DNA from: Chitinophagales bacterium
GTDB lineage: Bacteria > Bacteroidota > Bacteroidia > Chitinophagales > Saprospiraceae
Length of the DNA stretch: 64,000 nucleotides
Direction: 5' to 3'
NCBI GenBank assembly: GCA_013299105.1
Contig: JAAFJY010000003.1
Coordinates: forward strand, 248,001 to 312,000
In this document: in pieces, positions 10-45,110 of the stretch
Layout of the letters: each line of letters begins with the position of its first letter
Numbering within the stretch: position 1 is the stretch's first letter
Notes under the pieces: generated by a model
Told to the model about the DNA's origin: nothing
Seen by the model: the letters and a program-made list of their open reading frames with translations, nothing else
The model's database searches: none
Made by a program: the position numbers and the translations under genes

Positions 10-620
10 ATGGAAATTAAGGAGTTACCTGTACCAAAGGGCTTGGTTTACGAAACCTTCAACAATAAGACTTATTACCGGAAACATTACCGGGCAGTTT
101 TGCAAGGCTCTAAAACCCTGGAAGAAATCAAGGGTCGGAGTATATTTCAGTCACTTATCGTCCAAGCCTTGGTGTTTTACCTCAAAAACACCTTGCCCAA
201 AGACCTGTATTGGGTGCCTACCAATGAAGCAGGCCTGCACTTGGAACGCCACGAAAACATGGCCAACGACATTGCGATTGTCGAAAAGAAATCCCTGGAA
301 AACCCACGATCCTTGCGCTATTACCAGCATCCACCCAAATTCGCCTTGGAAGTGGACATCAAAATCGAGCCCATCAGCACCGAAACCGAACCACCCACCG
401 ACATCAGCATGTCGTACATTGTTGACAAATCTCAACGCTTACTCGACTTCGGTACCGAAGGCGTGGTGTGGATCATGCCCGCAGCCAGCAGATTTATGTG
501 GCCTGCAGTACCCAAAACCTGGAGATTTTCACTTGGAATGACTGGGTTCCCTTGTTTGACGGCTACGGTTTTTGTTTGAAGGATATTTTGGTGGAGGAGG
601 GGATTTTGGAAGGGGAATGA
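10..620 (+). pseudogene. Uma2-family (DUF820) restriction-endonuclease-fold protein, frameshifted
   Basis: The frame from the ATG at 10 reads like a Uma2/DUF820 protein. This PD-(D/E)XK-fold family is greatly expanded in some Bacteroidota and cyanobacteria, and its physiological role is poorly known. Typical landmarks are visible: an acidic-hydrophobic strand (FALEVDIK) near residues 114-121 and the conserved segment LLDFGTEGVVWI near 143-154. After residue 158 or so the homologous reading moves to another frame. From about 483 it continues as SQQIYVACSTQNLEIFTWND and ends with a normal family-like C-terminus at the TGA at 618-620. A loss of one base around 480-486 explains this. The frame is open to the left edge of the window, so the true start could lie outside, although ATG at 10 fits the family. 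A sequencing error cannot be excluded. Confidence 0.72.
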
Positions 621-29100: not shown

Positions 29101-32100
29101 CCGCAGTAGAGCCGTCGCTCCAGCGGAAAGTGGCACCCACTAATTTGCCCTGATTGGCTCGCAGAATGATGCGTTCGCCAGCACACAAGGTGGTGTCATT
29201 GGGCAAATTTGGGTTAAAATCGCGGGGTTGGAGCACATTAACGGTATCCCGCAATACACAATTGTTGCCATAAGTAATAGACACACGAATTTGGCCGCTG
29301 GTACTCACATTTAGTGTGCTTGAGGTGCTGTTGTTGCTCCAAACATAGCGCTCACCAGGGCTGAATGTATTGGCGTTCAGGGTAATGCTATTGCCTTTGC
29401 AAAGCACTACATCGGGGCCCAGTACGCCCACTTTTACGGTTTGTGGCGCTCGTTCAAAGATCCAATTTTGGTTACTGTTGCCGATGTTGGTACTGTTGTT
29501 TCCAGCAAAAAAGCGCACAGTGCCTGCACCAATCTGGTCGCGCATTTGCACAAAATCGGCCAAAACGGATCCGCTGTTCATGTTTACAGTAGCCTTGCTT
29601 CCCGCTAAAGTAGATGTCAATGAAATCGGGCTACAGTTGTTGCCAATAACCCGCCAGAATTTGGTCACCGTTTGGTTGCGTTGGTGATCAAGCTGGTAGG
29701 TTTTGCCCGCCGCCATAATCAAGGTATCAAAAGTATTCACTCCTCGGATAATGCCATTACCGCGGAATTCAACGTGAACGAAATTTGCTTTCGGTTCGAG
29801 ATTTTGCCCAAAAGCCAGATAAGGTGCTGTACCAATTTCGCCAGTACCAGAAATGTTGGAAAACAAAACTTTGTTCAGATTACCTCCTCCGTAAAGGTAT
29901 AAGAAGCTTTGATCGCCCATCAACTCCAGTGTAGAGGTTCCAGGTTCAATGGTGAGGCCAGTGGAAGAACTGAAATTGGGCACATTGTTTTGTCCATTGT
30001 TGATGATTTTCCAATAACTGCTGCCCATTTGTAGTTTCCTGGTATTTCCAGTGATCCATCCCGTGTAACCGTAATCCAAAGTAACGTTAAAATTATTGGA
30101 ATTAAAGGTTCCATTGACATGGGTAAGGTAGGCAGCTTGTAAATCATCTTTCAAAGTCCAAACCCCACCACCGTCAATATTGATGTTAAAGATTTTTTTA
30201 CCCGCTGTGGTGATCATGTTGTCCGTCCTTTCTCCTCTCAAATACACATTAGAGCCATTGACCGTCATCGCATTAGACAAGGTCATGGAACCAAAAATGT
30301 TTAAATACCAAAAGTTGTAGATTGGAGTATTGGTTACACCTGTCCAAGTCATGTTCTTGCAATAAGTGATGCTGAATGTTGCATTGACAGATTGATTAGG
30401 TCCACTGAACGAACGGCTGTCAAAAATCACATCGTCAATCGGCGTAGGAGGACACTCGCCTCCTGGCCCACCTGAACTCAAAGACCAATTGGTTCGAGCA
30501 TTCCAAGTGCCACTGCCTCCCACCCAAAACAGGGTTCGGCCTGTGCCACTGTTGAAAGTGATCCCTTGGTTGTTTCCTAGGTCAAATGAACTGTTCGCCG
30601 TTGTGACCCCAGCCCCAATCCTTCGAATATCACGGATTGCAAAACGGCTTAAGTTCAAATTGCGGGTGGTTTCCAAATAAGCTGGGAAATTGTCCGTCTG
30701 AGAACGGAAATTAACCAAACCTTCGCAATTATTTGGTGAAAGTATTTCATTGACCGTTAATGTGTCGCTGTGGCTTTGGCTCGAAGCGATGTTAAAATTG
30801 TAATTTAACTGCCTAAGTTCTAAAACATTGACTTCATGTCTGGAGTAAAAATAGATATCGGTGTTTGCGGTTATCGTATCGTATTTTACCCGGGCAGCTC
30901 GAAAATCCCAATGAGAAAGACTACCTGTACCACCTCTGAAGTTAATACGATTGTAAGTAAGTCCAGCTCTGCCTTGTTTTGTAAGGCTGCCGTAAATGTT
31001 GAAATCAATAAGTGAATTTCCTGCGTCAAAAGCGAGGTTATCGGCATGGAGCCTCCAAGTGATGAAAAATAAGTCAATGGTCCTTAGGTACCACTTGGTA
31101 TTACCCAGGGTCAATTTGCGGGGCGTAGCAGCCTCACTGAGCATGTTGAAACAAGCTACCTGCTGGCTATTGGTGTTGAAATCGCCCTGTTTGAATAAAA
31201 AGTCCCGTTTAATCGACAAACTATCGGCCAAGCTCCAAGTGCCAGAGCCATCCATGATCAGGTTTTTGCGAAACACTTGCCCGGCAGAAGTAACGATGTT
31301 GCCCGTATTCGCACCTTCCAGGTACACATCCCCTTCAAATTGGTATTGCATGTTGCGGATGAAGGTCAAAGAACCAAAGATGTGCAGGTTTTTGTCCATC
31401 GCACCAGCCAGGATCGGATTGCCTGTGGCCCCGGTCCAGGTCATGTTGCGACAATAGGCATTTTCTACATTGAGGTTTACCCGTCCGGCAGGGGCTCCAA
31501 ACGAATTGGCATCAAAAAAAACATTGTCGGCAGCAGTTGGCAAACAAGCACCACCTGGCCCTCCACTGGTAAAAGACCAGTGCATCACATCGTCCCAAGA
31601 GCCGGAACCAGCTACCCAGAATAAGGCATTGTTGGCTTTGGGTACTACTGTCCAGCCGCTGCTATTACCCAAATCAGCCCCATTGAAAGCTACAAAACGA
31701 GCGCCACCTGTGCCTGCAAGGTCTTTGAAAGAGAAAAAATTGGCTTTGATCGAGTCCGCTGGAGCACGCAAAGTAGCCTGGGCACCCGATTGAGAAGAAA
31801 ACATTTGGATAGGAGCTTGACAGGTCCCCAATGCGGTGAGTCTTCTGATGTTGTAGGTGAGGCCATTTTGCAAGCTGTACGTTTTCCCAGGCCCGAGTAC
31901 GAGGTCATCGAAGTTCAGTTGACCCCTGATTTCGCCATCGTTACGGATTTCAAGACGGGTCAAGTTAAGGGTACTGCCCTGGTCGACAGCTATTTGGCTT
32001 TTGCCCAAGGTGGCGGCAAACAATACCGTGCCAAGTGCATGCGTCTGCCCACCATAATACCGCATTAAGGTATTGGGTGAGGTCAATTCGATTCTACCGG

Positions 32101-32806
32101 TACCCGGAACGGTTGTTAAATTGGCAGTCCCATTGATTTCGACGGCTCCGCGTGTTCTGAAATCAATATTTATACGCTGGAAAGGCAAACCTGTTACCAC
32201 CACTGCACCGCTGCTCAGGTCAAACCTGGTGGCACCTACACTAGTTATCCAAAAATGCTCACAAGTCAAGGTTTGTCCATTGATTACCAGGCCACCAGCG
32301 GCCAGGGTCACCATGGTATCCGTACTCATTGGCGAAACGAGGGTCCATTGCCCGCCAATGCCATTGAAATTGACCAACTTGCGAAAGTTTTTGCCCCTGG
32401 TATCCACTTCATTGCCAGCGGCACCCGACAAAAAATTGACCTCGCCCCTAAAATTCCAGGTCATGTTATCGATGAAACGAAGTGAACCGTACACGTTCAG
32501 TACGTTAGCTGCCCCACTTACAATGGATGGGTTATTGGTCGCCCCAGTCCAATTCATGTCCAAGCAAAAAATAGTCTCATTGTCAACTGTAATAGTTTGG
32601 TTTGGACCATTGAAAGACTGGGCATCAAAAAATACCCGGTCACTTGCACCAGGCACCACACTGTGTTTCACCCCACCACCTGAGGTAGTGGCCCAGTGAG
32701 TAATATCAGACCAGTTGCCACTGCCGTTTACCCAATAGTAATCGGCGGCAAGAATAGTTGAATAGGCAAGTAGGCACAAAGCTAGCGTTAGAAGGGGCCG
32801 GAGCAT
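26183..32806 (-). CDS. Giant type IX-secreted modular surface protein
   Basis: A 2207-residue protein with a signal peptide (MLRPLLTLALCLLAYSTILA). Three long modules of about 370 residues follow, each opening with a WVNGSGNWSD-like motif (YYWVNGSGNW, LFWVAGSGSW, LFWVGGSGTW) and then MTWTGATGNP-like strands. Next come 14 short modules of about 70 residues, each with a GRDTxLC...YRWSDGST...V...GC...D pattern that suggests Ig-like or PKD-like domains with paired cysteines. The last 90 residues (VPNAFSPNLDQVNDDF and FRIFDRWGNLVFE) are a type IX secretion type B sorting domain. It should be carried across the outer membrane and left on the cell surface or in the matrix, perhaps as an adhesin. The ligand is unknown. 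Confidence 0.92.
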   Translation of the reverse strand: MLRPLLTLALCLLAYSTILAADYYWVNGSGNWSDITHWATTSGGGVKHSVVPGASDRVFFDAQSFNGPNQTITVDNETIFCLDMNWTGATNNPSIVSGAANVLNVYGSLRFIDNMTWNFRGEVNFLSGAAGNEVDTRGKNFRKLVNFNGIGGQWTLVSPMSTDTMVTLAAGGLVINGQTLTCEHFWITSVGATRFDLSSGAVVVTGLPFQRINIDFRTRGAVEINGTANLTTVPGTGRIELTSPNTLMRYYGGQTHALGTVLFAATLGKSQIAVDQGSTLNLTRLEIRNDGEIRGQLNFDDLVLGPGKTYSLQNGLTYNIRRLTALGTCQAPIQMFSSQSGAQATLRAPADSIKANFFSFKDLAGTGGARFVAFNGADLGNSSGWTVVPKANNALFWVAGSGSWDDVMHWSFTSGGPGGACLPTAADNVFFDANSFGAPAGRVNLNVENAYCRNMTWTGATGNPILAGAMDKNLHIFGSLTFIRNMQYQFEGDVYLEGANTGNIVTSAGQVFRKNLIMDGSGTWSLADSLSIKRDFLFKQGDFNTNSQQVACFNMLSEAATPRKLTLGNTKWYLRTIDLFFITWRLHADNLAFDAGNSLIDFNIYGSLTKQGRAGLTYNRINFRGGTGSLSHWDFRAARVKYDTITANTDIYFYSRHEVNVLELRQLNYNFNIASSQSHSDTLTVNEILSPNNCEGLVNFRSQTDNFPAYLETTRNLNLSRFAIRDIRRIGAGVTTANSSFDLGNNQGITFNSGTGRTLFWVGGSGTWNARTNWSLSSGGPGGECPPTPIDDVIFDSRSFSGPNQSVNATFSITYCKNMTWTGVTNTPIYNFWYLNIFGSMTLSNAMTVNGSNVYLRGERTDNMITTAGKKIFNINIDGGGVWTLKDDLQAAYLTHVNGTFNSNNFNVTLDYGYTGWITGNTRKLQMGSSYWKIINNGQNNVPNFSSSTGLTIEPGTSTLELMGDQSFLYLYGGGNLNKVLFSNISGTGEIGTAPYLAFGQNLEPKANFVHVEFRGNGIIRGVNTFDTLIMAAGKTYQLDHQRNQTVTKFWRVIGNNCSPISLTSTLAGSKATVNMNSGSVLADFVQMRDQIGAGTVRFFAGNNSTNIGNSNQNWIFERAPQTVKVGVLGPDVVLCKGNSITLNANTFSPGERYVWSNNSTSSTLNVSTSGQIRVSITYGNNCVLRDTVNVLQPRDFNPNLPNDTTLCAGERIILRANQGKLVGATFRWSDGSTADTLIVTKAGKYKVTMELSGCISSDSINISILDNQNSVNLGPDITKCVGQIHRLRVSSRPGTRILWNDNSTDTVLVVRQAGLYSVQVFEGRCSAKDTVRVTYNPSIGLNLGRDTVVCEGGRVTLTANVDNAVYRWSDNSPTRSINASQPGRYWVDVTKNGCTETDTIRLINIALPRFNLGPDTALCTGQSLQLMVVNSTPGLTYRWSSGATTSSITVSGGSALVGVTVTDRGCAFNDSRTINFNPVPVFNLPSVRGLCEGESTTLDVSLPNASYRWQDGNTAARYMVTRAGLYFVDVTVNGCTLRDSSQINFSPAPRFTLGRDTSLCADLSLNIGTTPVNGVTYRWDNGATTASRGVNASGTYTLTSNRNGCTFMDDINVIFKPLPVVNLGNDQSPCQGQPVTLSAAQTGAATYRWSDSSTGSTLAVTQNGTYSVEVTSNACSKRDTVRVNFVPLPRFELGLDTALCSGQSFRVGSTLAGAAYRWSTNETSPFINVNTSGTYSLTVTVGSCSFTDERRVLFNPSPVLNLGLDRGACQGETIALNVTQTGAAYRWQDGSTSGEFLARQTGSYSVEVSLNNCFRRDTLRLTFNPIPSFNLGRDSSLCDGEILALNGTVNGASYRWNDNVSTATRQVTQAGLYWLEVTLNGCSKRDSVNVRVVNLPRRLFGRDTMLCEGQQLRLSINAPGATFRWQDGSTNNQFLISQAGLYSLEARNGRCRSADSLQVGYNPLPRFNLGRDTTLCDNATLTLRVPLSPDAIRWSDNSTGGTLQVNKAGQYIANVIESNCRFADTITVVYRETPKFSLGKDTIACDDRIYLLEPQPRLPESIKLTWSTGTGIRALPLNKNETDKQFWLLAENGLCKFSDTVNVSFRECAYFKAYVPNAFSPNLDQVNDDFRPLLDQDVKITSYLFRIFDRWGNLVFETSDQTQAWDGRSKGKKAPEGVYLYFLDVTFEDDLGPGARKITGDVALIK

Positions 32807-34834: not shown

Positions 34835-37174
34835 TTATCGGATCAAATTCAGTTCACCCATAAAGGTTCGTTTTTCTCCATCAATGAATTCCACCATCGC
34901 TTTGTAAGCCAAGACCTGCGGGGCTATTTTTTTGCTCCGGGTGGTACCATCCCAACTTGGTTTTTTGCCTTGACTGCCGTCAAAACTATACAACAATTCA
35001 CCCCAGCGGTCGAAAATTTGCAGGTACAAAACCCGCTCAACGGCTCGGCTGGGGAATACCTCAAAACTGTCATTTTGCTTGTCGTCGTTGGGGCTAAAAG
35101 CGGTAGGAATGTAAATCCGGTAACTTTTGTTGACGTTGATGCGCATGGTGGCGGTGGCGAAGCAGCCTAGTTCATCCTTGCCCGATAAAGTAATTTCACC
35201 TTTCTGCGTGATGCGACTCAAATTGAATTCGGGACAAGTAGTACAAGTATTCGGATAAGAAGATTTCCAGTTGAAGTTGGCGATGGGGCGATTCCCTATG
35301 GCACTAATGTACAAGGAGTCGCCCAATTGCAAGCTGGTATCTTTGGGCAGCTTAATGGTGAATCGGCTGGGTTCGGCGAGGGTCAAGTCGCGACCGATTT
35401 TACAGCCCGTTTGATCCTCCACGCTGATGCGGTACTTACCCGCCGCAAGTTGCCTGAAAACCGAATCACGCAAAGCCTGCGAATCGCCTACTTTGAACCA
35501 ATAAGTAGGGTCGCCCCCGCGTGCACGCAAGCGAATTTCCCCATTTTTGTCGCCAAAGCAAGTGGGTGAAGTACTGCTGGCTTCCAATTCGAGCTTGAAA
35601 ACCTGGATGCTGTCCACTTTTTGGCAGCCCTTGCTATCGCTTACATTCACCTGGTACCAACCCGCCTGATTCAATGGAATGCTTGTCCCCGTTTCACCAT
35701 TGCTCCAGCGAATGTTGAAAGGGCCATCGCCACCTTCGATTTTTACTTCTGCGCGGCCCGTTTGCTCATCGCCACAAGGTTGCTTGAGCACTTTGGCGCT
35801 AGTTTGGAACGCTGGAGGGGCTTGCAGTTCAAACTTTTTTTCAAAACTGCACCCATTGCCCGTTTCGGTGATGGTAGTGAAGTAAGTGCCGGGGCCCAAT
35901 TGCGCAATACTTGCCCCAGTATCCCCTGTACTCCAGGCGTAAGTCAGGTTGTTGGCCCCTACCAGGGTAATTCGCCCATCGTTCAAACCCGCACAAGTAG
36001 GTGCTTTTAAATCGGTAGTGATGGAGGGCTCTGGAAAACTACGGGCCAGGAAAGAATCGCGAAACACACAACTGCGGTCGCGTGCTTCGAGGTAGTAATA
36101 CCCTGCTTGTTTGGCCAAAACCTCTGGGGTAGTAGAGACCTGGGGGCCATTTTTACCAAAAGTCCATTTGAAGGACTGGAAATTCTCGTCGATGGTTTTG
36201 ACCGTTTGTCCGGCGCTGCCACAAAAGCGCACTTCGTCCACATCAAGCAGCTCGCGGGTGAAGCGATCGGGAATTTCATACTCAAAACTGAAGGAACAGC
36301 TTTCGTTCAAACTATTGAGGGGGGTCACTTGCACGGTGTATTTGCTGCCCGGCGTGGGCTTGGTGAGGTTGATGCTGCGGCCAGTTGCCCCCGTGCTCCA
36401 GCGGTAGGTGGCAAAACCATCCGGCGCGTTGAGGGTGATCGTGGTGTCCAAACCAGGGCAAAAATAGCTGGGTTTGATGGTTGGGCTGATGCACTCGGCA
36501 TCGAGATAAGCATAACCATAGTGCAAACCCTCGGTGCAATCAAAAGTGGTGAATTGGATGGTCACTACCTGCCCGACGTAATCCCGGAGGTCGATGGCCG
36601 CGTTGGTCCAGGGGCGGTAACGAATGTCGCCCTGGTTTTTGAAGCCAGGAATATTGGAGGCTGCGGCCACCCGATAATAACCACAAGAAGTCTGTTTGCT
36701 GCGCCCATCCAAAACCTGTACCTCAAATTTAGGCTGTTGCACGGGTTTGTGGTTGGGGTCTTGCATGACCACCGCAAATTTGTAGATGAAAAGGGAATTG
36801 TCTTTGGTAACTAAAAAAGAAGTCTTGATGCGCTCGTATTGGCTTCCCGCCGAGCTATTGCCCAAGCGCAGGGCATAGTTGCCCAAGGATACTTGAGGAA
36901 TCACCTCATCGCGCACCAGGAAATCGCGGCCCATTTCCAAGCGAACGATAGTATGACGTTGAGGGGAGAAACCTTGCTTGGTATCCCTGAATCTCAAGGC
37001 TCCAAAAAAATTGGTTTCGGTGGTGCCAAACTCGCCTTGCCAACCAGTGAAATTGCCGAGCTCAAAGCCAATGTTTTTGCAATCATTGAGCGCTTGAGCG
37101 TTGCTACGGTCAAATTGGAAGAGGAAAAAGACGGCAAAAAGCGCCCAAGAACAGGGTGTCAGCGCTGGTTTCAT
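34835..37174 (-). CDS. Type IX-secreted protein with SprB-like repeats
   Basis: A 779-residue exported protein. ATG at 37174 begins the signal peptide MKPALTPCSWALFAVFFLFQ. The open frame 24 bp longer starts at a TTG that lies inside a -7-like element (TATTTTTG, minus strand, 37203-37196), so it is probably promoter. The N-terminal 230 residues resemble a jelly-roll carbohydrate-binding-type domain (CKNIGFELGNFTGWQG). Three SprB-type repeats (for example PTCAGLNDGRITLVG, PCGDEQTGRAEVKIEGGDG, PTCFGDKNGEIRLRARGGD) lie around residues 385-600. The last 90 residues are a type B sorting domain (YIPTAFSPNDDKQND, IFDRWGELLYSFDG). It should be surface-exposed, as SprB is in gliding bacteria. Confidence 0.9.
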   Translation of the reverse strand: MKPALTPCSWALFAVFFLFQFDRSNAQALNDCKNIGFELGNFTGWQGEFGTTETNFFGALRFRDTKQGFSPQRHTIVRLEMGRDFLVRDEVIPQVSLGNYALRLGNSSAGSQYERIKTSFLVTKDNSLFIYKFAVVMQDPNHKPVQQPKFEVQVLDGRSKQTSCGYYRVAAASNIPGFKNQGDIRYRPWTNAAIDLRDYVGQVVTIQFTTFDCTEGLHYGYAYLDAECISPTIKPSYFCPGLDTTITLNAPDGFATYRWSTGATGRSINLTKPTPGSKYTVQVTPLNSLNESCSFSFEYEIPDRFTRELLDVDEVRFCGSAGQTVKTIDENFQSFKWTFGKNGPQVSTTPEVLAKQAGYYYLEARDRSCVFRDSFLARSFPEPSITTDLKAPTCAGLNDGRITLVGANNLTYAWSTGDTGASIAQLGPGTYFTTITETGNGCSFEKKFELQAPPAFQTSAKVLKQPCGDEQTGRAEVKIEGGDGPFNIRWSNGETGTSIPLNQAGWYQVNVSDSKGCQKVDSIQVFKLELEASSTSPTCFGDKNGEIRLRARGGDPTYWFKVGDSQALRDSVFRQLAAGKYRISVEDQTGCKIGRDLTLAEPSRFTIKLPKDTSLQLGDSLYISAIGNRPIANFNWKSSYPNTCTTCPEFNLSRITQKGEITLSGKDELGCFATATMRINVNKSYRIYIPTAFSPNDDKQNDSFEVFPSRAVERVLYLQIFDRWGELLYSFDGSQGKKPSWDGTTRSKKIAPQVLAYKAMVEFIDGEKRTFMGELNLIR

Positions 37175-37485
37175 AGGTTTTCTGCATAGTTTGATCAAAA
37201 ATAGGGTGGCGTAACGGAGCGAAAAAATTTAGCTCAAAAACAAAAAGGATTGTACGCCAAAAGAATAAATGGCCGTCTTTAGCTGCAAGATAATGATTAG
37301 TGAGTAAAATCCAAGTCTTAGCATTTCTATAACTTATGTTAAAGTTTGGGCTGGATATGGTTAAAACCGATTTTGAGAATGGGGGTAGGCACAAACAGTT
37401 GTTATCTTGGTAGAGATTGTTTTGCAATACCAGCGACAATTGAGAACCTAACTGAACCATTTCACTTTGTAAAAACCTTTCACTC
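37175..37485. other. Divergent intergenic region
   Basis: 311 bp between two divergent genes. A likely -7 element for the leftward gene is TATTTTTG at 37203-37196 (minus strand). No convincing promoter for the rightward lipoprotein gene and no RNA gene were recognised. Confidence 0.45.
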
Positions 37486-37950
37486 ATGAAACGCTTGCCC
37501 ACCTTATTGACTGTTCTTGCGGGGTTTTGTTTATTGGCCCTCAGTGCGTGCTCTGATGCAGAGTTGCTTGAGCGCAGAGAAGACCGCCTGCTAGGGACCT
37601 GGATTTTCGACAAAGCTTTTTTTCGGGAAAATGGCGATTTGTTTCGCGACAACATCTCCGGCGACTTTGAGGGTGATATCCTTCAATTCAATCCCGATTA
37701 CACTTGTGTCTATGATGATCGCTTGAGCAATAAAGTCTATTACGGCACTTGGGGTGTTTTCCTCGACCGCGACAATTTTGACGGCGAAAATGACATCGAA
37801 TACTACCTCGACATCAACATCGAAGACGAAAGGCGCAGGCCCTACTTCTCCTTTAGCAGCGGCATTGAGTTCCTGACTTTCGAACGCCTGACCTTTGTGG
37901 CGCAAAACCGGGCTGGCGAGTTTCGCTTTCGCATGAGTAAGTTGAGGTAG
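37486..37950 (+). CDS. Small lipoprotein, lipocalin-like
   Basis: A 154-residue protein with a lipoprotein signal: LLALSACSD, with the lipid-bearing Cys at residue 22. The mature part begins with RLLGTWIFDKAFF and alternates strands (ILQFNPDYTCVYDD, VYYGTWGVFLDRD, FLTFERLTFVAQN), a pattern seen in lipocalin-like lipoproteins of Bacteroidota. It is anchored in the inner or outer membrane and its ligand is unknown. Its stop codon is only nine bases from the stop of the convergent AAA/nuclease gene. Confidence 0.7.
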   Translation: MKRLPTLLTVLAGFCLLALSACSDAELLERREDRLLGTWIFDKAFFRENGDLFRDNISGDFEGDILQFNPDYTCVYDDRLSNKVYYGTWGVFLDRDNFDGENDIEYYLDINIEDERRRPYFSFSSGIEFLTFERLTFVAQNRAGEFRFRMSKLR

Positions 37951-37959
37951 GCTGGCCAG

Positions 37960-39504
37960 CTAGGCCATTTCTTCCATTTTCCACTCGTCAATGGTGCGGC
38001 TTTGGCTGGAGAAATTGATGCCTACACCAATCACGGGCTTATTTTTGTGCCAAAAAGCTTCGTAATAAGCCTTTTTGCGGATTTGTTGAAGGGCAAGATC
38101 CGCACTTTGGTCCAATTTGAATTCAAAGATGTAAATATTGTTTCCTGTTTCCACCAAAGCATCCAAGCGGCCGCTGCTGTTGGGCACTTCGCTGTACACC
38201 GACAATCCCATGTAGGAGAAAATCAGGTGTACCGCTGCATGGTAAAACTTTTCAGGATATTTTTCATATTCCTGATAAGGGATGGATTTAAAAAGACCAG
38301 TGAGGATTCTGATGACTTCTTCCACGTTTTGTTGGCGGAGCAGGGTTTCTAGTTTGAAAACCAACAGGGAGCTATCGCCGTACGGCAAGCCCAAATAGGA
38401 ATCAATTAAGTTGCCATTCATAGAATCTTCGACTTCACGATTGGGATAATCGAGGTGAAAAAAGCCGAATTCATCTCTAAATTTAATCGTTAAGTAACCC
38501 GTTTGGTACATTAGGCCATAAGGGTTTAGGTTCTCAAGCTCAAAGGTGTCAAAGCTTTTCTTGGATTGAGGCTCAAGTTTTAAGCTGTAGTATCCTTTTT
38601 CTTTAAGTAGGTTAATCAAAAACCTGGGCGTGCCAGTTTCAAACCAATAATTTTCAAATTTTTTAAAGCTGAAAAAGGAGTTGATCGAAACTGGGTTGTA
38701 AACCGTTTCAGCGTTTTCTTCAAAGCGGTAGCCATTGTACCACAAGCGCAATTGATCAAGTAGTTCTTGTCGGTCGAGTTTTAAAGCATGGCTGCATTCG
38801 TCGATGTGCTCTGCAAAGTTGTCTTCGAGTTCTTTTTGGGTATAGCCCAGCATTGTTGCATAAGCTGGGTGCATGGTCAGGTCGGTGAGATTGTTGAGGC
38901 CCGAAAAAATGCCTACTTTGGAAAACTTACTTACTCCAGTGATAAAAACCAGTTCGAGTAGGTGGTCATTTTTTTTCAAGACCGAAAAGAAATCTTTAAG
39001 TAGTTCTCGATTGTTTAGTGCTTTTGCTTGTTCAGTTCCCAAAAATTGAGTGATTGGTGCATCGTATTCGTCAATCAGTACTACAACTTTATTTTTTTTG
39101 GCAACATGGATCAGTAATTGCTCAAATTTTGTGCTGACTGATGCTTCTTTAACTGGAAATTGAAAAGCTTGATAGGCCATGTCCATCAAATAATTCAATC
39201 CATATTCAAGTCCTTTCTCCTGAACTCCTATACCCGTAAAATTTAGGTGGATAACCGGATGGGTACGCTCCCAATTCCATTTTGAGGCTATCGAAAGTCC
39301 GGAGAAGAGCTCCTTGTTTCCATTGTATAGTTCTTTTAGTATCGATAAAGTGATGGATTTGCCAAACCTGCGCGGACGTGCAAGAAACAAATACCTTCCA
39401 AGAGGCTTTAAATCTGCGAAGAAGTGAGTTTTATCCACATACAAATAATTTCCCTCAATGATTTCCCGAAAACTCTGTAACCCCAGGGGCAAAAGTTTGG
39501 CCAT
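37960..39504 (-). CDS. AAA-ATPase-like / PD-(D/E)XK nuclease-family protein, paralogue 1
   Basis: A 514-residue protein of the AAA-ATPase-like (PF09820) plus PD-(D/E)XK (DUF1703-type) architecture. The P-loop variant is RPRRFGKSITLS (K49). Walker B is VVVLIDEYDAP, and a sensor-like segment is LVFITGVSKFSKVG. The C-terminal nuclease-like motif is GRLDALVE...YIFEFKL (Asp and Glu-x-Lys). The family is strongly expanded in Bacteroidetes and anaerobes, and its function is not established. The two paralogues to the right share most of their sequence: from 38341 to 38920 the DNA is identical to 39976-40555. It is probably transcribed with them. Confidence 0.88.
   Translation of the reverse strand: MAKLLPLGLQSFREIIEGNYLYVDKTHFFADLKPLGRYLFLARPRRFGKSITLSILKELYNGNKELFSGLSIASKWNWERTHPVIHLNFTGIGVQEKGLEYGLNYLMDMAYQAFQFPVKEASVSTKFEQLLIHVAKKNKVVVLIDEYDAPITQFLGTEQAKALNNRELLKDFFSVLKKNDHLLELVFITGVSKFSKVGIFSGLNNLTDLTMHPAYATMLGYTQKELEDNFAEHIDECSHALKLDRQELLDQLRLWYNGYRFEENAETVYNPVSINSFFSFKKFENYWFETGTPRFLINLLKEKGYYSLKLEPQSKKSFDTFELENLNPYGLMYQTGYLTIKFRDEFGFFHLDYPNREVEDSMNGNLIDSYLGLPYGDSSLLVFKLETLLRQQNVEEVIRILTGLFKSIPYQEYEKYPEKFYHAAVHLIFSYMGLSVYSEVPNSSGRLDALVETGNNIYIFEFKLDQSADLALQQIRKKAYYEAFWHKNKPVIGVGINFSSQSRTIDEWKMEEMA
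38341..38920. repeat. 580-bp stretch identical to 39976-40555
   Basis: By eye no mismatch is seen over 580 bp between paralogues 1 and 2, while their 5' halves differ strongly and their 3' ends show scattered substitutions. This indicates recent gene conversion or unequal exchange. Confidence 0.85.
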
Positions 39505-39594
39505 GCTTTATTGATTTCCTACAAAGATAACAATTTTGTAAAAGCTTATGCTGCTCAACTTTCACTCTTAGAGACTGCTTTATAACATGGCCCG

Positions 39595-41139
39595 CTAGAC
39601 CATTTCTTCCATTTTCCACTCGTCGATGGTGCGGCTTTGGCTGGAGAAATTGATGCCTACACCGATCACTGGCTTGTTTTTGTGCCAAAAAGCTTCGTAA
39701 TAAGCCTTTTTACGGATTTGTTGAAGGGCAATATCCGCACTTTGGTCCAATTTGAATTCAAAGATGTAAATATTGTTTCCAGTTTCCACCAAAGCATCCA
39801 AGCGGCCGCTGCTGTTGGGCACTTCGCTGTACACCGACAATCCCATGTAGGAGAAAATCAGGTGTACTGCTGCATGGTAAAACTTTTCAGGGTATTTTTC
39901 GTATTCCTGATAAGGGATGGATTTGAAGATCCCAGTAAGGATTTTGATGACTTCTTCCACGTTTTGTTCGCGGAGCAGGGTTTCTAGTTTGAAAACCAAC
40001 AGGGAGCTATCGCCGTACGGCAAGCCCAAATAGGAATCAATTAAGTTGCCATTCATAGAATCTTCGACTTCACGATTGGGATAATCGAGGTGAAAAAAGC
40101 CGAATTCATCTCTAAATTTAATCGTTAAGTAACCCGTTTGGTACATTAGGCCATAAGGGTTTAGGTTCTCAAGCTCAAAGGTGTCAAAGCTTTTCTTGGA
40201 TTGAGGCTCAAGTTTTAAGCTGTAGTATCCTTTTTCTTTAAGTAGGTTAATCAAAAACCTGGGCGTGCCAGTTTCAAACCAATAATTTTCAAATTTTTTA
40301 AAGCTGAAAAAGGAGTTGATCGAAACTGGGTTGTAAACCGTTTCAGCGTTTTCTTCAAAGCGGTAGCCATTGTACCACAAGCGCAATTGATCAAGTAGTT
40401 CTTGTCGGTCGAGTTTTAAAGCATGGCTGCATTCGTCGATGTGCTCTGCAAAGTTGTCTTCGAGTTCTTTTTGGGTATAGCCCAGCATTGTTGCATAAGC
40501 TGGGTGCATGGTCAGGTCGGTGAGATTGTTGAGGCCCGAAAAAATGCCTACTTTAGTGAACTTGCTCACGCCAGTGATGAAGACTAACTCAATTGAAGAG
40601 TCCAGCTCCTTGATTACCGAAAAAAAACTCTTCAAATAATCTCGATTTTCTTCCGCTTTCTTTGTGTTGTTTCCTAAAAAATGAATAATAGGTGCATCGT
40701 ATTCATCAACCAATACCACCACCTTATGCACTTTCCCAAGTTCACGAATCAGGACACGAAACTGGTCTCTGGCTGTTTCTTCAACTAAATTTACTCCTAA
40801 TTCACTACTCGCCTCCAACATCCGATTTCGCAATGCTTTTTCAAGCCCTAACTGTTCGAAGTTGACGTCGCGGAGTGAAAAATGAATAACCGGGTGAATC
40901 TTGTCCCAGTCCCAACGAGATTCGATCCAAAGTCCAGCGAATAGTTCTTTACTACCACTATAAAGCGCTTTAATTGTTGACAAAGTGATAGATTTTCCAA
41001 ACCTTCGAGGGCGAGAAAGGAAGAAAAAACGGCCAAAAGATTTGAAGTCAACAAAAAATTGGGTCTTATCAACATAGATGTATCCACCTGAGATAATATC
41101 CCTGAAATTCTGTAGCCCCAGTGGCAAAAATTTGGCCAT
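39595..41139 (-). CDS. AAA-ATPase-like / PD-(D/E)XK nuclease-family protein, paralogue 2
   Basis: A 514-residue protein that is a chimera of its neighbours. The N-terminal 200 residues (FLSRPRRFGKSITLS, ELFAGLWIESRWDWDKIHPV) resemble paralogue 3. The rest, from TGVSKFTKVGIFSGLNNLTD onward, is almost identical to paralogue 1. P-loop, Walker B (VVVLVDEYDAP) and the GRLD/EFK nuclease motif are intact. The Met at 41139 starts the conserved MAKFLPLGLQ. The frame extends 12 codons further upstream, to 41175. The gap to paralogue 1 is 90 bp and to paralogue 3 it is 57 bp, which suggests a single transcript. Confidence 0.87.
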   Translation of the reverse strand: MAKFLPLGLQNFRDIISGGYIYVDKTQFFVDFKSFGRFFFLSRPRRFGKSITLSTIKALYSGSKELFAGLWIESRWDWDKIHPVIHFSLRDVNFEQLGLEKALRNRMLEASSELGVNLVEETARDQFRVLIRELGKVHKVVVLVDEYDAPIIHFLGNNTKKAEENRDYLKSFFSVIKELDSSIELVFITGVSKFTKVGIFSGLNNLTDLTMHPAYATMLGYTQKELEDNFAEHIDECSHALKLDRQELLDQLRLWYNGYRFEENAETVYNPVSINSFFSFKKFENYWFETGTPRFLINLLKEKGYYSLKLEPQSKKSFDTFELENLNPYGLMYQTGYLTIKFRDEFGFFHLDYPNREVEDSMNGNLIDSYLGLPYGDSSLLVFKLETLLREQNVEEVIKILTGIFKSIPYQEYEKYPEKFYHAAVHLIFSYMGLSVYSEVPNSSGRLDALVETGNNIYIFEFKLDQSADIALQQIRKKAYYEAFWHKNKPVIGVGINFSSQSRTIDEWKMEEMV

Positions 41140-41196
41140 TATTCGCTGATTTAATGCAAAAGTAAATAACTTCAAGGAAGCTTAAAAACAATAAGT

Positions 41197-42741
41197 TCAG
41201 GCCATTTCTTCCATCTTCCACTCGTCGATGGTGCGGTTTTGGCTGGAGAAATTGATGCCTACACCAATCACGGGCTTATTTTTGTGCCAAAAAGCTTCGT
41301 AATAAGCCTTTTTACGGATTTGTTGAAGGGCAAGATCCGCACTTTGGTCCAATTTGAATTCAAAGATGTAAATATTGTTTCCAGTTTCCACCAAAGCATC
41401 CAAGCGGCCGCTGCTGTTGGGCACTTCGCTGTACACCGACAATCCCATGTAGGAGAAAATCAGGTGTACTGCTGCATGGTAAAACTTTTCAGGGTATTTT
41501 TCGTATTCCTGATAAGGGATGGATTTGAAAAGGCCTGTGAGGATTTTGATGACTTCTTCCACGTTTTGTTGGCGGAGCAGGGTTTCTATTTTGAAAACAA
41601 CAGGGGCCCCATTTCCATGAATTAAACCAGTGTAGGACTCCAAAAGACTAGCTTTCATGGATATTTCAACTTCATGATTGGGGTAATCCAAGTGATAAAA
41701 ACCAAATTCATCTCTTGACTTTATGGTAAGGTAGCCAGCTTGATAGGAGAGACCAAGGGGGTTGAGGTTGTCTAATTCAAAAGCATCAAAACTTTCTTCA
41801 CTCTGAGGCTCTAATTCAAAACGATAGAGTCCTTGTTGTCTTAGTATGTCCACCAGAAACTTAGGCGTACCAGTTGCAAACCAAAAGTTTTTGAATTTTT
41901 TAAAGTTGAAAAAAGAATTGATCGAAACTGGGTTGTAAACGGTTTCTGCATTTTCTTCAAATCTATATCCATTGTACCACCAACGCATTTTTTCCATTAA
42001 TTCAGGCCTGGAAAGTTTAAGCGCTTGGGCACAGTCGTCGATATATTCCGCAAAATTATCCTCCAATTCCTTTTGGGTAAAGCCCAGCATGGTCGCGAAA
42101 GCGGGGTGCATGGTAAGGTCTGTTAGGTTGTTCAAGCCGGAAAAAATTCCCACCTTAGAAAACTTGCTTACCCCCGTGATGAGCACAAACTCCAGGTTGG
42201 CATCCATTTCCTTGAGCACTGAAAAAAAGCTCTTCAAGTTATCGCGGTTTTCAGTAGCCTGATCCAGGTCTTTTCCCAGGTAATGAATGATGGGGGAGTC
42301 GTATTCATCGATCAAGACGACCACTTTTTTTTCTTTGCCCAATTCCCTGATCAGGAAACGGAATTGTTCCTGAGCGGTGTCTTCCTCTTGTTTGACTCCA
42401 AACGAATGGCTTGTTTCAAGTATGCGCTTGAGCAGTGCTTTTTCCAACCCCAAGCGCTCGAAATTAATGTCACGGAGAGACAAATGGATAACTGGATGCG
42501 TCTTCTCCCAATCCCAACGAGACTCGATCCAAAGCCCGGCAAAAAGCGCTTTGCTACCCCTGTAAAGCTCATTTAGAATGGATAAAGTGATCGACTTACC
42601 AAATCGGCGAGGGCGAGAAAGAAAATAAGCACTGGGCGCTGAAACCAGGTCAAAAATATGCTGAGTCTTGTCAATGTAAACAAGATCAAGTTCCCGAATC
42701 TTCCTAAAATCCTGTAAGCCCAGTGGCAATTTCTTAGCCAT
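41197..42741 (-). CDS. AAA-ATPase-like / PD-(D/E)XK nuclease-family protein, paralogue 3
   Basis: A 514-residue member and the first of the three in transcription order. The C-terminal 130 residues are nearly identical to the other two at DNA level (41200-41590). The middle (KLSRPELMEKMRWWYNGYRF) and N-terminal parts are clearly diverged. P-loop (RPRRFGKSITLS), Walker B (VVVLIDEYDSP) and nuclease motif are intact, so all three copies look functional. The upstream sequence carries TTTCCTACAAAGATA, which is also found upstream of paralogue 1, so a shared control element is possible. Confidence 0.87.
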   Translation of the reverse strand: MAKKLPLGLQDFRKIRELDLVYIDKTQHIFDLVSAPSAYFLSRPRRFGKSITLSILNELYRGSKALFAGLWIESRWDWEKTHPVIHLSLRDINFERLGLEKALLKRILETSHSFGVKQEEDTAQEQFRFLIRELGKEKKVVVLIDEYDSPIIHYLGKDLDQATENRDNLKSFFSVLKEMDANLEFVLITGVSKFSKVGIFSGLNNLTDLTMHPAFATMLGFTQKELEDNFAEYIDDCAQALKLSRPELMEKMRWWYNGYRFEENAETVYNPVSINSFFNFKKFKNFWFATGTPKFLVDILRQQGLYRFELEPQSEESFDAFELDNLNPLGLSYQAGYLTIKSRDEFGFYHLDYPNHEVEISMKASLLESYTGLIHGNGAPVVFKIETLLRQQNVEEVIKILTGLFKSIPYQEYEKYPEKFYHAAVHLIFSYMGLSVYSEVPNSSGRLDALVETGNNIYIFEFKLDQSADLALQQIRKKAYYEAFWHKNKPVIGVGINFSSQNRTIDEWKMEEMA

Positions 42742-42794
42742 TCCAAACTGATTTCCTACAAAGATAGCACTTTTTCAGGATTCGATCAAGCACT

Positions 42795-43301
42795 TCACCC
42801 CTTCACCGCCACCGGAATGCCGCTCACCATCAAGGTTACTTTTTGGGCTTTGCTGGCCAGGTACTGGTTCACCCAACCCTGCAAATCGGTGAATTTGCGG
42901 CCAATATCGGTATCGGCGTGCAAACCCATGCCCAGTTCATTGCTCACAAAAAGGATCAATTCTTTCTTTTCGGCGAGGGCGTCGATTTCGCTTTTGGCGT
43001 ACTCCAGACACTTTTCAATGTCTTGCTTCTCGTCGGAGAAATAATTGGTGATCCAGAGGGTGGCACAGTCGATCACGGTAGCTTTGCCTTGCAAGTCGAG
43101 TTTTGACAGGTCTTTTTCCTCCTCAATGGCGGTCCAGCGATCATCGCGGTCGAGTTGGTGGCGTTTGATTCGCAAGGCAAAGTCATCGTCCCAACTGCGG
43201 GCGGTGGCTATGTACAAAGGAGTATCGCTATGCTGCAAGGCAACTTCCTGCGCAAATCGGCTTTTCCCGCTGCGGGTTCCGCCAGTTATCATCCAAATCA
43301 T
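42795..43301 (-). CDS. cobU: Adenosylcobinamide kinase / adenosylcobinamide-phosphate guanylyltransferase
   Basis: A 168-residue bifunctional enzyme of the nucleotide-loop assembly branch of cobalamin synthesis. It phosphorylates adenosylcobinamide and then transfers GMP. The P-loop is GGTRSGKS at residues 7-14. The conserved ALRIKRHQLDRDDRW segment holds the histidine that carries the GMP intermediate. ELGMGLHADTDIGRKFTDLQ near the C-terminus is characteristic. It is the last gene of a probable unit with the DUF6580 gene and cobC (26 and 51 bp gaps). No cobS or cobT is in the window, and I saw no cobalamin riboswitch. Confidence 0.95.
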   Translation of the reverse strand: MIWMITGGTRSGKSRFAQEVALQHSDTPLYIATARSWDDDFALRIKRHQLDRDDRWTAIEEEKDLSKLDLQGKATVIDCATLWITNYFSDEKQDIEKCLEYAKSEIDALAEKKELILFVSNELGMGLHADTDIGRKFTDLQGWVNQYLASKAQKVTLMVSGIPVAVKG

Positions 43302-43327
43302 TGAAAGGAGGGTTTTAGGGCCTGGGT

Positions 43328-43924
43328 TTATTGACGAATCGCCAATACCGGAAAGCGCGTTTTGGCCAATTCAAATCCGCCGAACATCAAAGCGCTGTAA
43401 AACAAGGTTCCAGTCAGGAAATTTTTCATGTAAGGCAAACCCTGCGCATAACATTGTAACAAAGCATCCCAAGTGCGGGCGAAAGGCTGACCCGTGCGCA
43501 AATCCAGGCCCAAGGGGCTGAAAAAAGACATGGTATCTGATAAAATCCAGTGTCCAAGCGATGCGATTAAGGCTGCCAACAGCACATTGCCTACGGTGAT
43601 TTTTTGCAAAAACTGCTTGCCATACCATACAATCAAGGCAAAAACGGCATAAACACCCATCCAACCTTGGTACATCAAGCCATATTTTCCATCGAACAGA
43701 ACGCCATTGATGATCAAGTCAGACAATAACAGCGACAGCAAAGCCACCACAAATGCCTTCCAGGGTTTGCTAAAATAGGCACCGCCAAAAAGTGCCATCG
43801 CACCAATGGGGGTAAGGTTAGTCATCGGGCCCAATTGTGCGGCATTCAATACCCGCACCAAGCTGGCCGCTAAAATAATCAGCAACAAAGTCAAAATACG
43901 CGGATTGAGGCGTTGAGTATCCAT
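43328..43924 (-). CDS. DUF6580 family membrane protein, possible cobamide-pathway transporter component
   Basis: A 198-residue integral membrane protein with five or six hydrophobic segments (for example ILTLLLIILAASLVRVL, AFVVALLSLLLSDLIING, MGVYAVFALIVWYGKQFL, VLLAALIASLGHWIL). The conserved LTPIGAMALFGGAYF near residue 35 is typical of DUF6580. Its layout resembles substrate-binding (S) components of ECF-type vitamin uptake systems. Its position between cobC and cobU suggests uptake of a cobalamin precursor, but this is inference. The Met at 43924 was chosen over the longer frame, which begins at a TTG at 43972. Confidence 0.75.
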   Translation of the reverse strand: MDTQRLNPRILTLLLIILAASLVRVLNAAQLGPMTNLTPIGAMALFGGAYFSKPWKAFVVALLSLLLSDLIINGVLFDGKYGLMYQGWMGVYAVFALIVWYGKQFLQKITVGNVLLAALIASLGHWILSDTMSFFSPLGLDLRTGQPFARTWDALLQCYAQGLPYMKNFLTGTLFYSALMFGGFELAKTRFPVLAIRQ

Positions 43925-43975
43925 TATTGTGGTAGTTTTCAAGTTGAGTAGCACAGGTACCACCCCATGCAACCC

Positions 43976-44548
43976 TTATGTCAAATTGTGAAAACGCAAT
44001 TTCCAAAGGCCATGCTTGAATGTCAAGCGGGTGATGGAACCATAATCGAGGTCCAACTGGAAAGCGTTCGACAAAGGTAAGTTTATTAAGTGACAGAGCA
44101 AACCCCGAATTACCCCGGCGTGCGTAATTAATGCGAGGTTTTCCACATTATTTTGTACAATTGTTTGTAAAAACTGGACCGAACGACTTTGAACTTCCAG
44201 AAAATTTTCTCCTCCTGGTGGGCGAATGTTCACAAAATCGGCCATCCAGGGATCCAGTTCGGCTGGCGGAATTTCCCCCCAAGTCTTGCCCTCCCAGGCA
44301 CCGAAATCCATTTCCCAAAGTTCAGGGGCGAGTGTAAAACTTGGGCTCAGGTGTTGTACCAACAATTGGCAGCGCTGGGCCGGACTGCTGATAAAATGAA
44401 AATTTTCAAATGAAATGTACTGATTCAACAGGATTTTTACTTTGTTAATGTCGGCTTCGAAAGTATTTGCCAGCCCCACATCACTCTGCCCATAACAAGC
44501 CCCAGGTTTTACATCCACCGCAGTGTGCCGAATCAAGTACAAGTTCAT
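43976..44548 (-). CDS. cobC: Alpha-ribazole phosphatase-like histidine phosphatase
   Basis: A 190-residue histidine-phosphatase-superfamily enzyme. The catalytic His is in YLIRHTAVDVKPGACYGQSD, with acidic partners in ELWEMDFGAWEGKTWGE and the second His in LALITHAGVIRG. The YGQSDVGL sequence is the usual CobC signature. It should remove phosphate from alpha-ribazole 5'-phosphate or adenosylcobalamin 5'-phosphate. It is co-oriented with the DUF6580 gene and cobU, which supports the role. Confidence 0.88.
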   Translation of the reverse strand: MNLYLIRHTAVDVKPGACYGQSDVGLANTFEADINKVKILLNQYISFENFHFISSPAQRCQLLVQHLSPSFTLAPELWEMDFGAWEGKTWGEIPPAELDPWMADFVNIRPPGGENFLEVQSRSVQFLQTIVQNNVENLALITHAGVIRGLLCHLINLPLSNAFQLDLDYGSITRLTFKHGLWKLRFHNLT

Positions 44549-44556
44549 ATTCTCTT

Positions 44557-44585
44557 AAACTTTTCAACTTTTCAACTTTTCAACT
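44557..44585 (-). repeat. ACTTTTCA simple repeat
   Basis: Three copies of ACTTTTCA lie between cobC and the lipoprotein gene. This is the complement of the GTTGAAAAG words at 34640-34675 and 60380-60405. Confidence 0.6.
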
Positions 44586-44597
44586 ATCAGCAATCAC

Positions 44598-45110
44598 TCA
44601 TTTGCACAAAATGGTGATTCGATCAGTTTTGATCTTGTTGCTCAGGTGCCCTTTCTCATCTTTGAGTTGAATCAAAAAAGAAAGCGTGTCACTAGGAAAG
44701 TCGCGCCTGACGAAGCAAACCGTATTGGCGCGTTTATCCAGGCAGCAGAACGAACCCGTTGAACTCTCATTGGTCAATTTGATGCTGATTTCGCCTTGTA
44801 GCGCTTCTCCGGCCCCCAATTGTGGGATGGGTGAAATGGCAAAAGGCAGCGGAATATCCGTTCTGCTATCCGTGACGTACAAATTCTCTTCTTTAGTACT
44901 GCCCAAATCCCCATCGCCGTCAGTGAACGCAAAGCGTATTTCAATGGTATCGGGTTTACCAGTAAAACTTCCGTTCTGATCAATTTGATTTTTACTGATA
45001 CCCATGTACCTGATAATCGGTTCAATAGGGTATTCTGGAGGGTTGGCACAGGTCCACAAACCCATTGACAGTAAAAGCAAAAGCAGTGGGGTGAAAATCT
45101 TTCTTAGCAT
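44598..45110 (-). CDS. Lipoprotein of unknown function
   Basis: A 170-residue protein with a lipoprotein signal (LLLLSMGLWTCANPP, Cys at 21). The mature part has a calcium-loop-like TDGDGDLGSTKEEN, which might bind Ca2+, and strands typical of small beta-sandwich lipoproteins. Two adjacent cysteines occur in GSFCCLDKRANTVCFVRR. It lies 49 bp upstream of cobC on the same strand and may head that transcript. It is divergent from the LuxE-like gene with no spare bases between the two frames. Confidence 0.65.
   Translation of the reverse strand: MLRKIFTPLLLLLLSMGLWTCANPPEYPIEPIIRYMGISKNQIDQNGSFTGKPDTIEIRFAFTDGDGDLGSTKEENLYVTDSRTDIPLPFAISPIPQLGAGEALQGEISIKLTNESSTGSFCCLDKRANTVCFVRRDFPSDTLSFLIQLKDEKGHLSNKIKTDRITILCK

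Follow-up and report, generated by a model that had tools for sequence, protein, structure and literature searches.

A tandem array of DUF1703 ATPase-nuclease genes with block-wise gene conversion and a variable two-helix segment in a Chitinophagales bacterium

Introduction

DUF1703 proteins, to which Knizewski et al. assigned an AAA+ domain, a nuclease domain and an unusual Walker A motif (PMC1913061), are widespread and multi-copy, and the main text of a later report describes their role as unknown (PMC6387759). In that report, Siozios et al. described 25 DUF1703 paralogues in Cardinium cCpun, among which several methods detected intragenic recombination and homogenisation was not apparent; the report also states that a DUF1703 homologue is part of the Medea factor of Tribolium (PMC6387759). 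PF09820, one of the two Pfam domains of the genes treated here, is moreover listed for RdrA (PMC10952713). Here we analyse a tandem array of three DUF1703 genes in a Chitinophagales bacterium (Saprospiraceae; GCA_013299105.1), which lies within a 64,000-nt stretch of contig JAAFJY010000003.1 (the window; positions 248001-312000 of this contig, C23 in our numbering). The source assembly is a 7.67-Mb draft genome in 77 contigs, 99.99% complete.

Results

Gene conversion in the array

The array consists of three intact 514-aa open reading frames (ORFs; W1, W2 and W3) lying head to tail on the minus strand at 37960-42741 (Table 1). Each matches PF09820 (181.9-189.6 bits, cut-off 26.1) and PF08011 (64.3-64.9 bits, cut-off 25.5), which identifies all three as DUF1703 members and agrees with the original prediction of three tandem AAA/PD-(D/E)XK genes; the motifs RPRRFGKS, DEYD and GRLD...EFK are intact, as that prediction had also held. 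W1 and W2 are identical over a block of 585 bp that covers residues 196-390, which had been noted as 580 bp at almost the same coordinates. When codon order was shuffled 2000 times per gene pair and the longest identical run taken as the statistic, the observed runs of 585 nt (W1-W2), 195 nt (W2-W3) and 86 nt (W1-W3) compared with shuffled maxima of 87, 50 and 58 nt, respectively, and were reached in 0 of 2000 shuffles for each pair.

Silent-site differences (pS; Nei-Gojobori p-distances by region) are distributed very unevenly along the genes, from 0.00 to 0.99, so that the divergence is far from uniform. Between W1 and W2 they amount to 0.73-0.81 in residues 1-195, 0.00 in 196-390 and 0.18 in 391-513; between W2 and W3 to 0.69-0.83 over residues 1-390 and 0.11 in 391-513; and between W1 and W3 to 0.70-0.99 before the nuclease end and 0.14 within it. 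The nucleotide identity of residues 391-513 is 95-97% in all three pairs, confirming the near-identical nuclease end that had been pointed out, and in residues 1-195 W2 is closer to W3 (67%) than to W1 (60%), again as predicted, with 55% between W1 and W3. Because 79 non-tandem pairs of the same genome (at least 65% nucleotide identity) average a silent difference of 0.71 at the C-terminal end, within a range of 0.68-0.76 for the means of six regions, the near-identity of the nuclease ends in the array is not explained by protein constraint. Gene conversion among W1-W3 is thus well supported by the block-wise collapse of silent differences in the sequence.

In trees of 18 genes built by region, W2 and W3 are sisters in the N-terminal region with an ultrafast bootstrap support of 78, and in the middle region, where W1 and W2 are identical, W1, W2 and W3 group together with a support of 100. 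The approximately unbiased (AU) test rejected a grouping of W2 and W3 without W1 in the middle region (p 0.0001) and did not reject a grouping of W1 and W2 in the N-terminal region (p 0.37). A direction of conversion from W2 as donor to W1 as recipient, suggested by the sister position of W2 and W3, is for this reason not established.

Homogenised ends in other arrays

The original prediction went further, in proposing that diverged halves, comprising ATPase and recognition parts, are shuffled by recombination onto a nuclease end common to all copies. The recombination stands, and block-wise mosaics are present in other genomes too, but a division into halves and a shared end proved too coarse. 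We tallied 13 arrays of at least 65% nucleotide identity (the pairs L099 and L091, below 65%, were left out), in two of which, L121 and G395, the genes stand about 4.6 and 5.6 kb apart instead of side by side. Scored as a C-terminal pS no higher than half the average for the two middle regions, a homogenised end was found in six of them (W, the present array; C56, G023, L121, G375-C57 and G375-C46) and was lacking in seven (C6, a borderline case, C49, C34, L130, G322, G247 and G395). In three of the five arrays of the source genome (C49, whose two copies are 93% identical, C56 and C34) the silent difference of the first 80 codons does not exceed that of the nuclease end. A homogenised nuclease end is common, yet it is no rule. 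Sequence comparison suggests instead that the part most consistently kept apart is not the ATPase half but a segment of ~40 residues inside the ATPase domain.

A variable two-helix segment

In each of the six sets examined, this segment (residues ~91-130) either is the most divergent window or comes within 0.01 of being so. Among 87 pairs of the source genome, which are not independent of each other, window 101-120 is the lowest of the 20-codon windows in 42 and window 121-140 in 14; among 97 pairs, the mean amino-acid identity of 25 windows reaches its minimum, 0.47, at 101-140. The same window is the lowest of 25 in Desulfamplus, Leucothrix and Parabeggiatoa, albeit in small and partly duplicated samples, and second in the chlamydial genome G433, with 0.331 vs 0.329 for window 361-400. 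These cross-phylum comparisons drew on 8 of the 43 matches of G430 and 6 of the 7 of G433; for G431 and G432, in each of which one gene was listed twice, they drew on 8 distinct genes out of 16 matches and 6 out of 29, the G432 pairs spanning 3 distinct genes. In the W3 model, the two helices of the segment (Table 1) fall between two strands, one at residues 84-88 and that of Walker B at 140-145.

Two segment alleles in another genus

In one other Bacteroidota genus, represented by 41 copies (40 distinct proteins) from 17 genomes, the segment occurs in two discrete forms, 15 copies of A and 26 of B, which are found in several species and are both held by 5 of the 17 genomes. None of the 820 pairs has a segment identity between 0.55 and 0.60, with 393 pairs below and 427 above, and segment identity is barely correlated with that of the flanks (r 0.11). 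Only window 91-125, of the 41 scored, splits fully into two clusters; 7 of the 48 windows did not resolve into two clusters, and two near-end windows tie owing to the default distance for partial genes. The allele is independent of three other blocks (Fisher p 0.52, 0.73 and 1.0). Window 361-400 has a mean identity of 0.65 in this genus, equal to that of the segment.

In the 430 pairs with the same allele, the segment pS is 0.45, against 0.43 and 0.51 for the flanks; in the 390 pairs with different alleles, it rises to 0.75 (nonsynonymous difference, pN, 0.40) and the flanks stay at pS/pN 0.43/0.05 and 0.53/0.06. Since the silent difference is raised only between alleles, with the flanks unchanged, relaxed constraint alone would be insufficient. 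One example is a pair of copies in one genome (L178_646 and L178_2457 in G322), with pS/pN of 0.08/0.01 in residues 41-90, 0.66/0.39 in 91-130 and 0.03/0.00 in 141-190; the copies of this genome carry the two alleles 5 and 6 times. Genomes with a single match carry either form (A in G083 and G137, B in G063 and G156). Judged from these comparisons, the two forms are old segment alleles set by recombination into shared backbones and not merely a relaxed site. Among the proteins compared from outside the genus, no segment exceeded 0.44 identity to A or B.

Domains and predicted fold

Across 77 aligned family members, R45, R46, G48, K49, D145, E146, D448 and E461 do not vary, and at least 90% of the members have K463. 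The conservation of D448, E461 and K463, together with the model match to CidB/CinB and EcoRV, assigns the nuclease end to the PD-(D/E)XK superfamily, with a predicted nuclease activity. When modelled alone (residues 378-514), this domain reached a predicted local distance difference test score (pLDDT) of 81.9; Foldseek gave no match at E 0.001, and VIA-align placed CidB/CinB first (Z 10.7 and 9.9) and EcoRV next (7.7).

The model of the whole W3 protein, based on 77 sequences, has a pLDDT of 90.4 and a predicted template-modelling score of 0.88; a sequence search for a solved structure found none (best E 0.88). Realignment of the Foldseek list with VIA-align gave the archaeal ATPases 2qen (Z 16.5, 4.0 A over 285 residues, model residues 3-364) and 2fna (15.4), followed by the plant nucleotide-binding leucine-rich repeat proteins (NLRs) RPP1, G10, WRR4A, Roq1, NRC4 and Sr35 (Z 12.6-15.2, with RPP1 at 15.2), CED-4 (13.3-13.5) and Avs3 (11.1). 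Residues ~3-364 are accordingly modelled as a nucleotide-binding oligomerisation domain (NOD) fold with P-loop, helical and winged-helix parts, similar to NLRs and to signal transduction ATPases with numerous domains (STAND), a fold that in itself implies neither assembly nor function.

Family size, spread and setting

The source genome holds 54 PF09820 matches, of which 45 genes of at least 480 aa, from a profile search with W1-W3, were used here (fragments, a 433-aa gene and the distant frames L049 and L051 were left out). Genomes of the same genus have 2, 9, 27 and 4 matches, giving a copy range of 2 to 54 within the genus, and the nearest protein from these genomes shares 63% identity with W3. 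Of 392 sampled Bacteroidota genomes, 37 have a match, which in 30 exceeds the curated cut-off. The best 80 named relatives among the 587 candidates listed include members of Chlamydiae, Desulfobacterales, Thiothrix, Chloroflexi, Lentisphaeria and Spirochaetia and one archaeon, Methanobrevibacter; 62 plasmid records (39 covering at least 80% of the query) and 13 viral-contig loci match as well. A large expansion outside Bacteroidota is found in Desulfamplus magnetovallimortis (G430), whose 43 PF09820 matches include dense clusters of whole and broken copies at C1:170970-180714 and C2:370952-377562.

Dispersed copies of the source genome sit among housekeeping genes, such as those for alanyl-tRNA synthetase, glycine cleavage P-protein and enolase. 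Two of them, L038 (C4:161768) and L033 (C1:127562), have 1331 identical nt in common and are ~90% identical over ~2.5 kb, upstream DNA included; at the sequence level this resembles a segmental duplication of recent date. Fragments and a TAG-interrupted copy (L047, L031, L046 and L048) are also present, as in the birth and death of copies. No precise mobile unit emerged: three dispersed pairs share the ORF plus 11-13 nt 3' of the stop and 13-20 nt 5' of the start, or less, and neutral flanks would not align at such divergence.

The genes of the array are separated by gaps of 90 nt and 57 nt, and the array has a G+C content of 41.6%, against 47.2% for the window. W2 starts with ATG, and an in-frame TTG is also present upstream. 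A promoter-like TAnnTTTG box, matching the -7 element of Bacteroidota, precedes each gene (Table 1) and is found near the start of only 23 of the 45 family copies in the genome. The neighbours of the array encode a decarboxylase, a CHU_C-tagged protein with an SprB repeat, CobU, DUF6580, a histidine phosphatase and a LuxE-like protein, and are not defence genes. The genes for CobU, DUF6580 and the histidine phosphatase (42795-44548) adjoin the array, and large CHU_C (type IX secretion) proteins are encoded at 34838-37198, the one with the SprB repeat, and at 26186-32806. A neighbour search found CobU beside the family in 0 of 39 relatives; since this neighbour is seen only in the source genome, the array lies in a variable stretch. 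Three same-genus genomes (G002, G003 and G004) retain the gene that starts the next stretch at 44598, together with its LuxE-like neighbour. On the side facing the array, neither DUF1703 nor CobU was found over 12.8 kb in G002 and over 4.4 kb in G004; the contig of G003 stops ~0.7 kb beyond the homologue of the 44598 gene and is uninformative on that side. When neighbours were searched a second time, in 4 genomes, no empty site was detected.

Table 1. Coordinates of the array genes and their features in the window
Feature	Position	Strand	Basis
Gene 1 (W1), 514 aa, DUF1703 ATPase-nuclease	37960..39504	-	PF09820 residues 6-200, E 1.2e-55; PF08011 residues 417-508, E 7.6e-18
Gene 2 (W2), 514 aa, DUF1703 ATPase-nuclease	39595..41139	-	PF09820 E 1.6e-53; PF08011 E 7.6e-18
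Gene 3 (W3), 514 aa, DUF1703 ATPase-nuclease	41197..42741	-	PF09820 E 7e-56; PF08011 E 1.1e-17
Block of 585 bp identical to W2, W1 copy, residues 196-390	38335..38919	-	Sequence comparison, codon shuffles
Block of 585 bp identical to W1, W2 copy	39970..40554	-	Sequence comparison, codon shuffles
Homogenised nuclease end of W1, residues 391-514	37963..38334	-	pS 0.18 to W2, 0.14 to W3
Homogenised nuclease end of W2, residues 391-514	39598..39969	-	pS 0.11 to W3
Homogenised nuclease end of W3, residues 391-514	41200..41571	-	Nucleotide identity, pS
Variable two-helix segment of W1, residues ~91-130	39115..39234	-	Lowest-identity stretch
Variable two-helix segment of W2, residues ~91-130	40750..40869	-	Lowest-identity stretch
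Variable two-helix segment of W3, residues ~91-130	42352..42471	-	Lowest-identity stretch; helices 99-113 and 123-135 in W3 model
TAnnTTTG box, promoter-like, 25 nt 5' of W1 ATG	39522..39529	-	Motif match
TAnnTTTG box, 25 nt 5' of W2 ATG	41157..41164	-	Motif match
TAnnTTTG box, 25 nt 5' of W3 ATG	42759..42766	-	Motif match

Discussion

The segment alleles, the predicted fold, the conserved catalytic residues, the patchy occurrence, the range of copy numbers and the relatives on plasmids and viral contigs lead us to suggest, with a probability of roughly 0.4, that the array encodes single-gene conflict proteins whose specificity lies in residues ~91-130 and whose copies are shaped by conversion and selection. 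In each protein, residues ~3-364 would form an NLR/STAND-like ATP switch and residues ~391-514 a C-terminal PD-(D/E)XK nuclease effector. The segment would carry the specificity, so that every copy would recognise a separate trigger, most probably a part of a phage or of another mobile element; this recognition would open a closed, ADP-bound state, upon which the protein would assemble with ATP and its nuclease end would be switched on. Conversion would keep the backbone and the nuclease interchangeable, and selection would keep the segments different.

It would be possible, though we consider it doubtful, to extend this idea to DUF1703 as a whole. Its members might be minimal NLR-like nucleases in which a two-helix cassette of ~40 residues serves as a recognition code that is dealt among paralogues, with old alleles kept across species by selection, forming a combinatorial repertoire in several phyla whose logic resembles that of plant NLR clusters or fungal allorecognition genes. 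The cassette itself is drawn from the relatives, because the segment of the array in the window is divergent but lacks homogenised DNA on both sides.

That feature of the array also weighs against single-gene conflict proteins with a specificity segment, as do several others. The segment is conserved in some tandem pairs (G023, G375-C46 and L121), and within alleles it is under purifying constraint (pN/pS 0.10/0.45). Foldseek ranked ORC/Cdc6 subunits first for the W3 model, with low TM-scores, and Z values above 13 to NLRs do not prove a STAND function in the modelled protein. Pfam assigns only the ATPase and the nuclease in W1-W3, leaving residues ~365-390 and the variable segment without an assignment and showing no sensor domain of known kind, and PADLOC models did not fit the array proteins, the sole match being Cas4_II (E 0.009) in the nuclease part. 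Nor do the copies appear to lie in defence islands: the 110 neighbours of 20 copies matched 150 PADLOC families, against 146 for 105 proteins from 20 control regions (E 1e-5), and there was no excess in this coarse comparison, which counted families instead of proteins and took its controls from the same genome.

The mosaic might instead be neutral, if ordinary conversion stops at a surface segment that is diverged, weakly constrained and of no special role. We regard this as unlikely. In its favour, conversion needs homology, so that a diverged island maintains itself, variable residues occur elsewhere too (361-400), and the main text on Cardinium reports DUF1703 recombination without homogenisation (PMC6387759). 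What such a process accounts for less readily is that two sharply discrete alleles recur across several species, with a within-allele constraint like that of the flanks, and that the divergence of the segment recurs in other phyla. Rather improbable, in our view, is that the segment acts as an assembly code, that is, an interface which limits each paralogue to its own kind and prevents cross-activation, with no sensing of a trigger. The segment does sit in the nucleotide-binding domain, which forms the assembly in STAND proteins; with up to 54 matches in one genome there could be many paralogues to keep apart, and discrete alleles suit a matching code. However, two alleles among many copies, as in G322, would insulate few of them.

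It is quite improbable that the genes are selfish, surviving as mobile or addictive elements whose nuclease promotes their own spread, host defence being uninvolved. Single copies dispersed among housekeeping genes, relatives on plasmids and viral contigs, fragments, the nuclease domain and the DUF1703 homologue in the Tribolium Medea factor, as mentioned in PMC6387759, would all suit such an origin, but the dispersed pairs define no precise mobile unit, and around the array no transposase, repeat structure or adjoining immunity partner was seen. That the 585-bp identity arose from repeat collapse or mis-joining is very improbable. The assembly is a draft and the repeat exceeds short-read length; the copies nevertheless retain separate differences outside the block, other genomes have block-wise mosaics, and both alleles occur in single-match genomes, where there is no paralogue to confuse. 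Single-gene conflict proteins remain the interpretation that we favour. If the segment does set recognition, it would represent a second route of diversification for bacterial NLR-like proteins, one that acts within the switch domain instead of through an additional sensor. Natural copies that are nearly identical apart from the segment, as in the G322 pair, make the role of the family directly testable.

Among known systems, RADAR pairs an RdrA ATPase with an adjacent RdrB deaminase; judged by gene neighbourhood, the array does not fit, as no deaminase was present among the ten neighbours scanned. The antiviral STAND (Avs) proteins were rejected as a class for the array, as no known antiviral STAND model in PADLOC matched. 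Wolbachia CidB/CinB is the closest structural match of the modelled nuclease domain, and any deeper relation would be conjectural; Wolbachia-type cytoplasmic incompatibility factors are encoded by an operon of two genes, and their B protein has two nuclease domains, whereas the array proteins have one PDDEXK_9 domain and an ATPase each and no partner gene. In the hsdS genes of type I restriction systems, recognition parts are shuffled on a conserved frame. The array is similar in having a conserved frame with exchanged parts, but the exchanged part comprises ~40 residues inside the ATPase domain, no inverted repeats were found in 35000-45000 at the settings used, and no methylase was present among the ten neighbours.

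With STAND/NLR and archaeal 'ATPase_2' proteins (2qen, 2fna, RPP1, CED-4 and Avs3) the array proteins have the predicted fold of residues ~3-364 in common; they differ in their C-terminal effector, in the lack of a Pfam repeat sensor and in having their variability inside the nucleotide-binding domain. STAND targets of diversity-generating retroelements (DGRs) in multicellular bacteria have been proposed as antigen sensors on STAND NTPases with directed diversity; in those targets a CLec domain is mutated by reverse transcription (PMC10907252), whereas in the array family it is whole segment alleles that are exchanged among copies. A reverse transcriptase was sought near the array among the ten neighbours only. 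The closest parallel is the DUF1703 set of Cardinium cCpun, with the same two domains and motifs, many paralogues and intragenic recombination; its main text reports no homogenisation and singles out no region, whereas here there are homogenised blocks in the array and a defined variable segment (PMC6387759). A mainly open-access search, which did not extend to the supplement of that report, found no published account of such a segment. The mosaic itself is thus already published for DUF1703, and what is added here is the concentration of the divergence and a defined variable segment.

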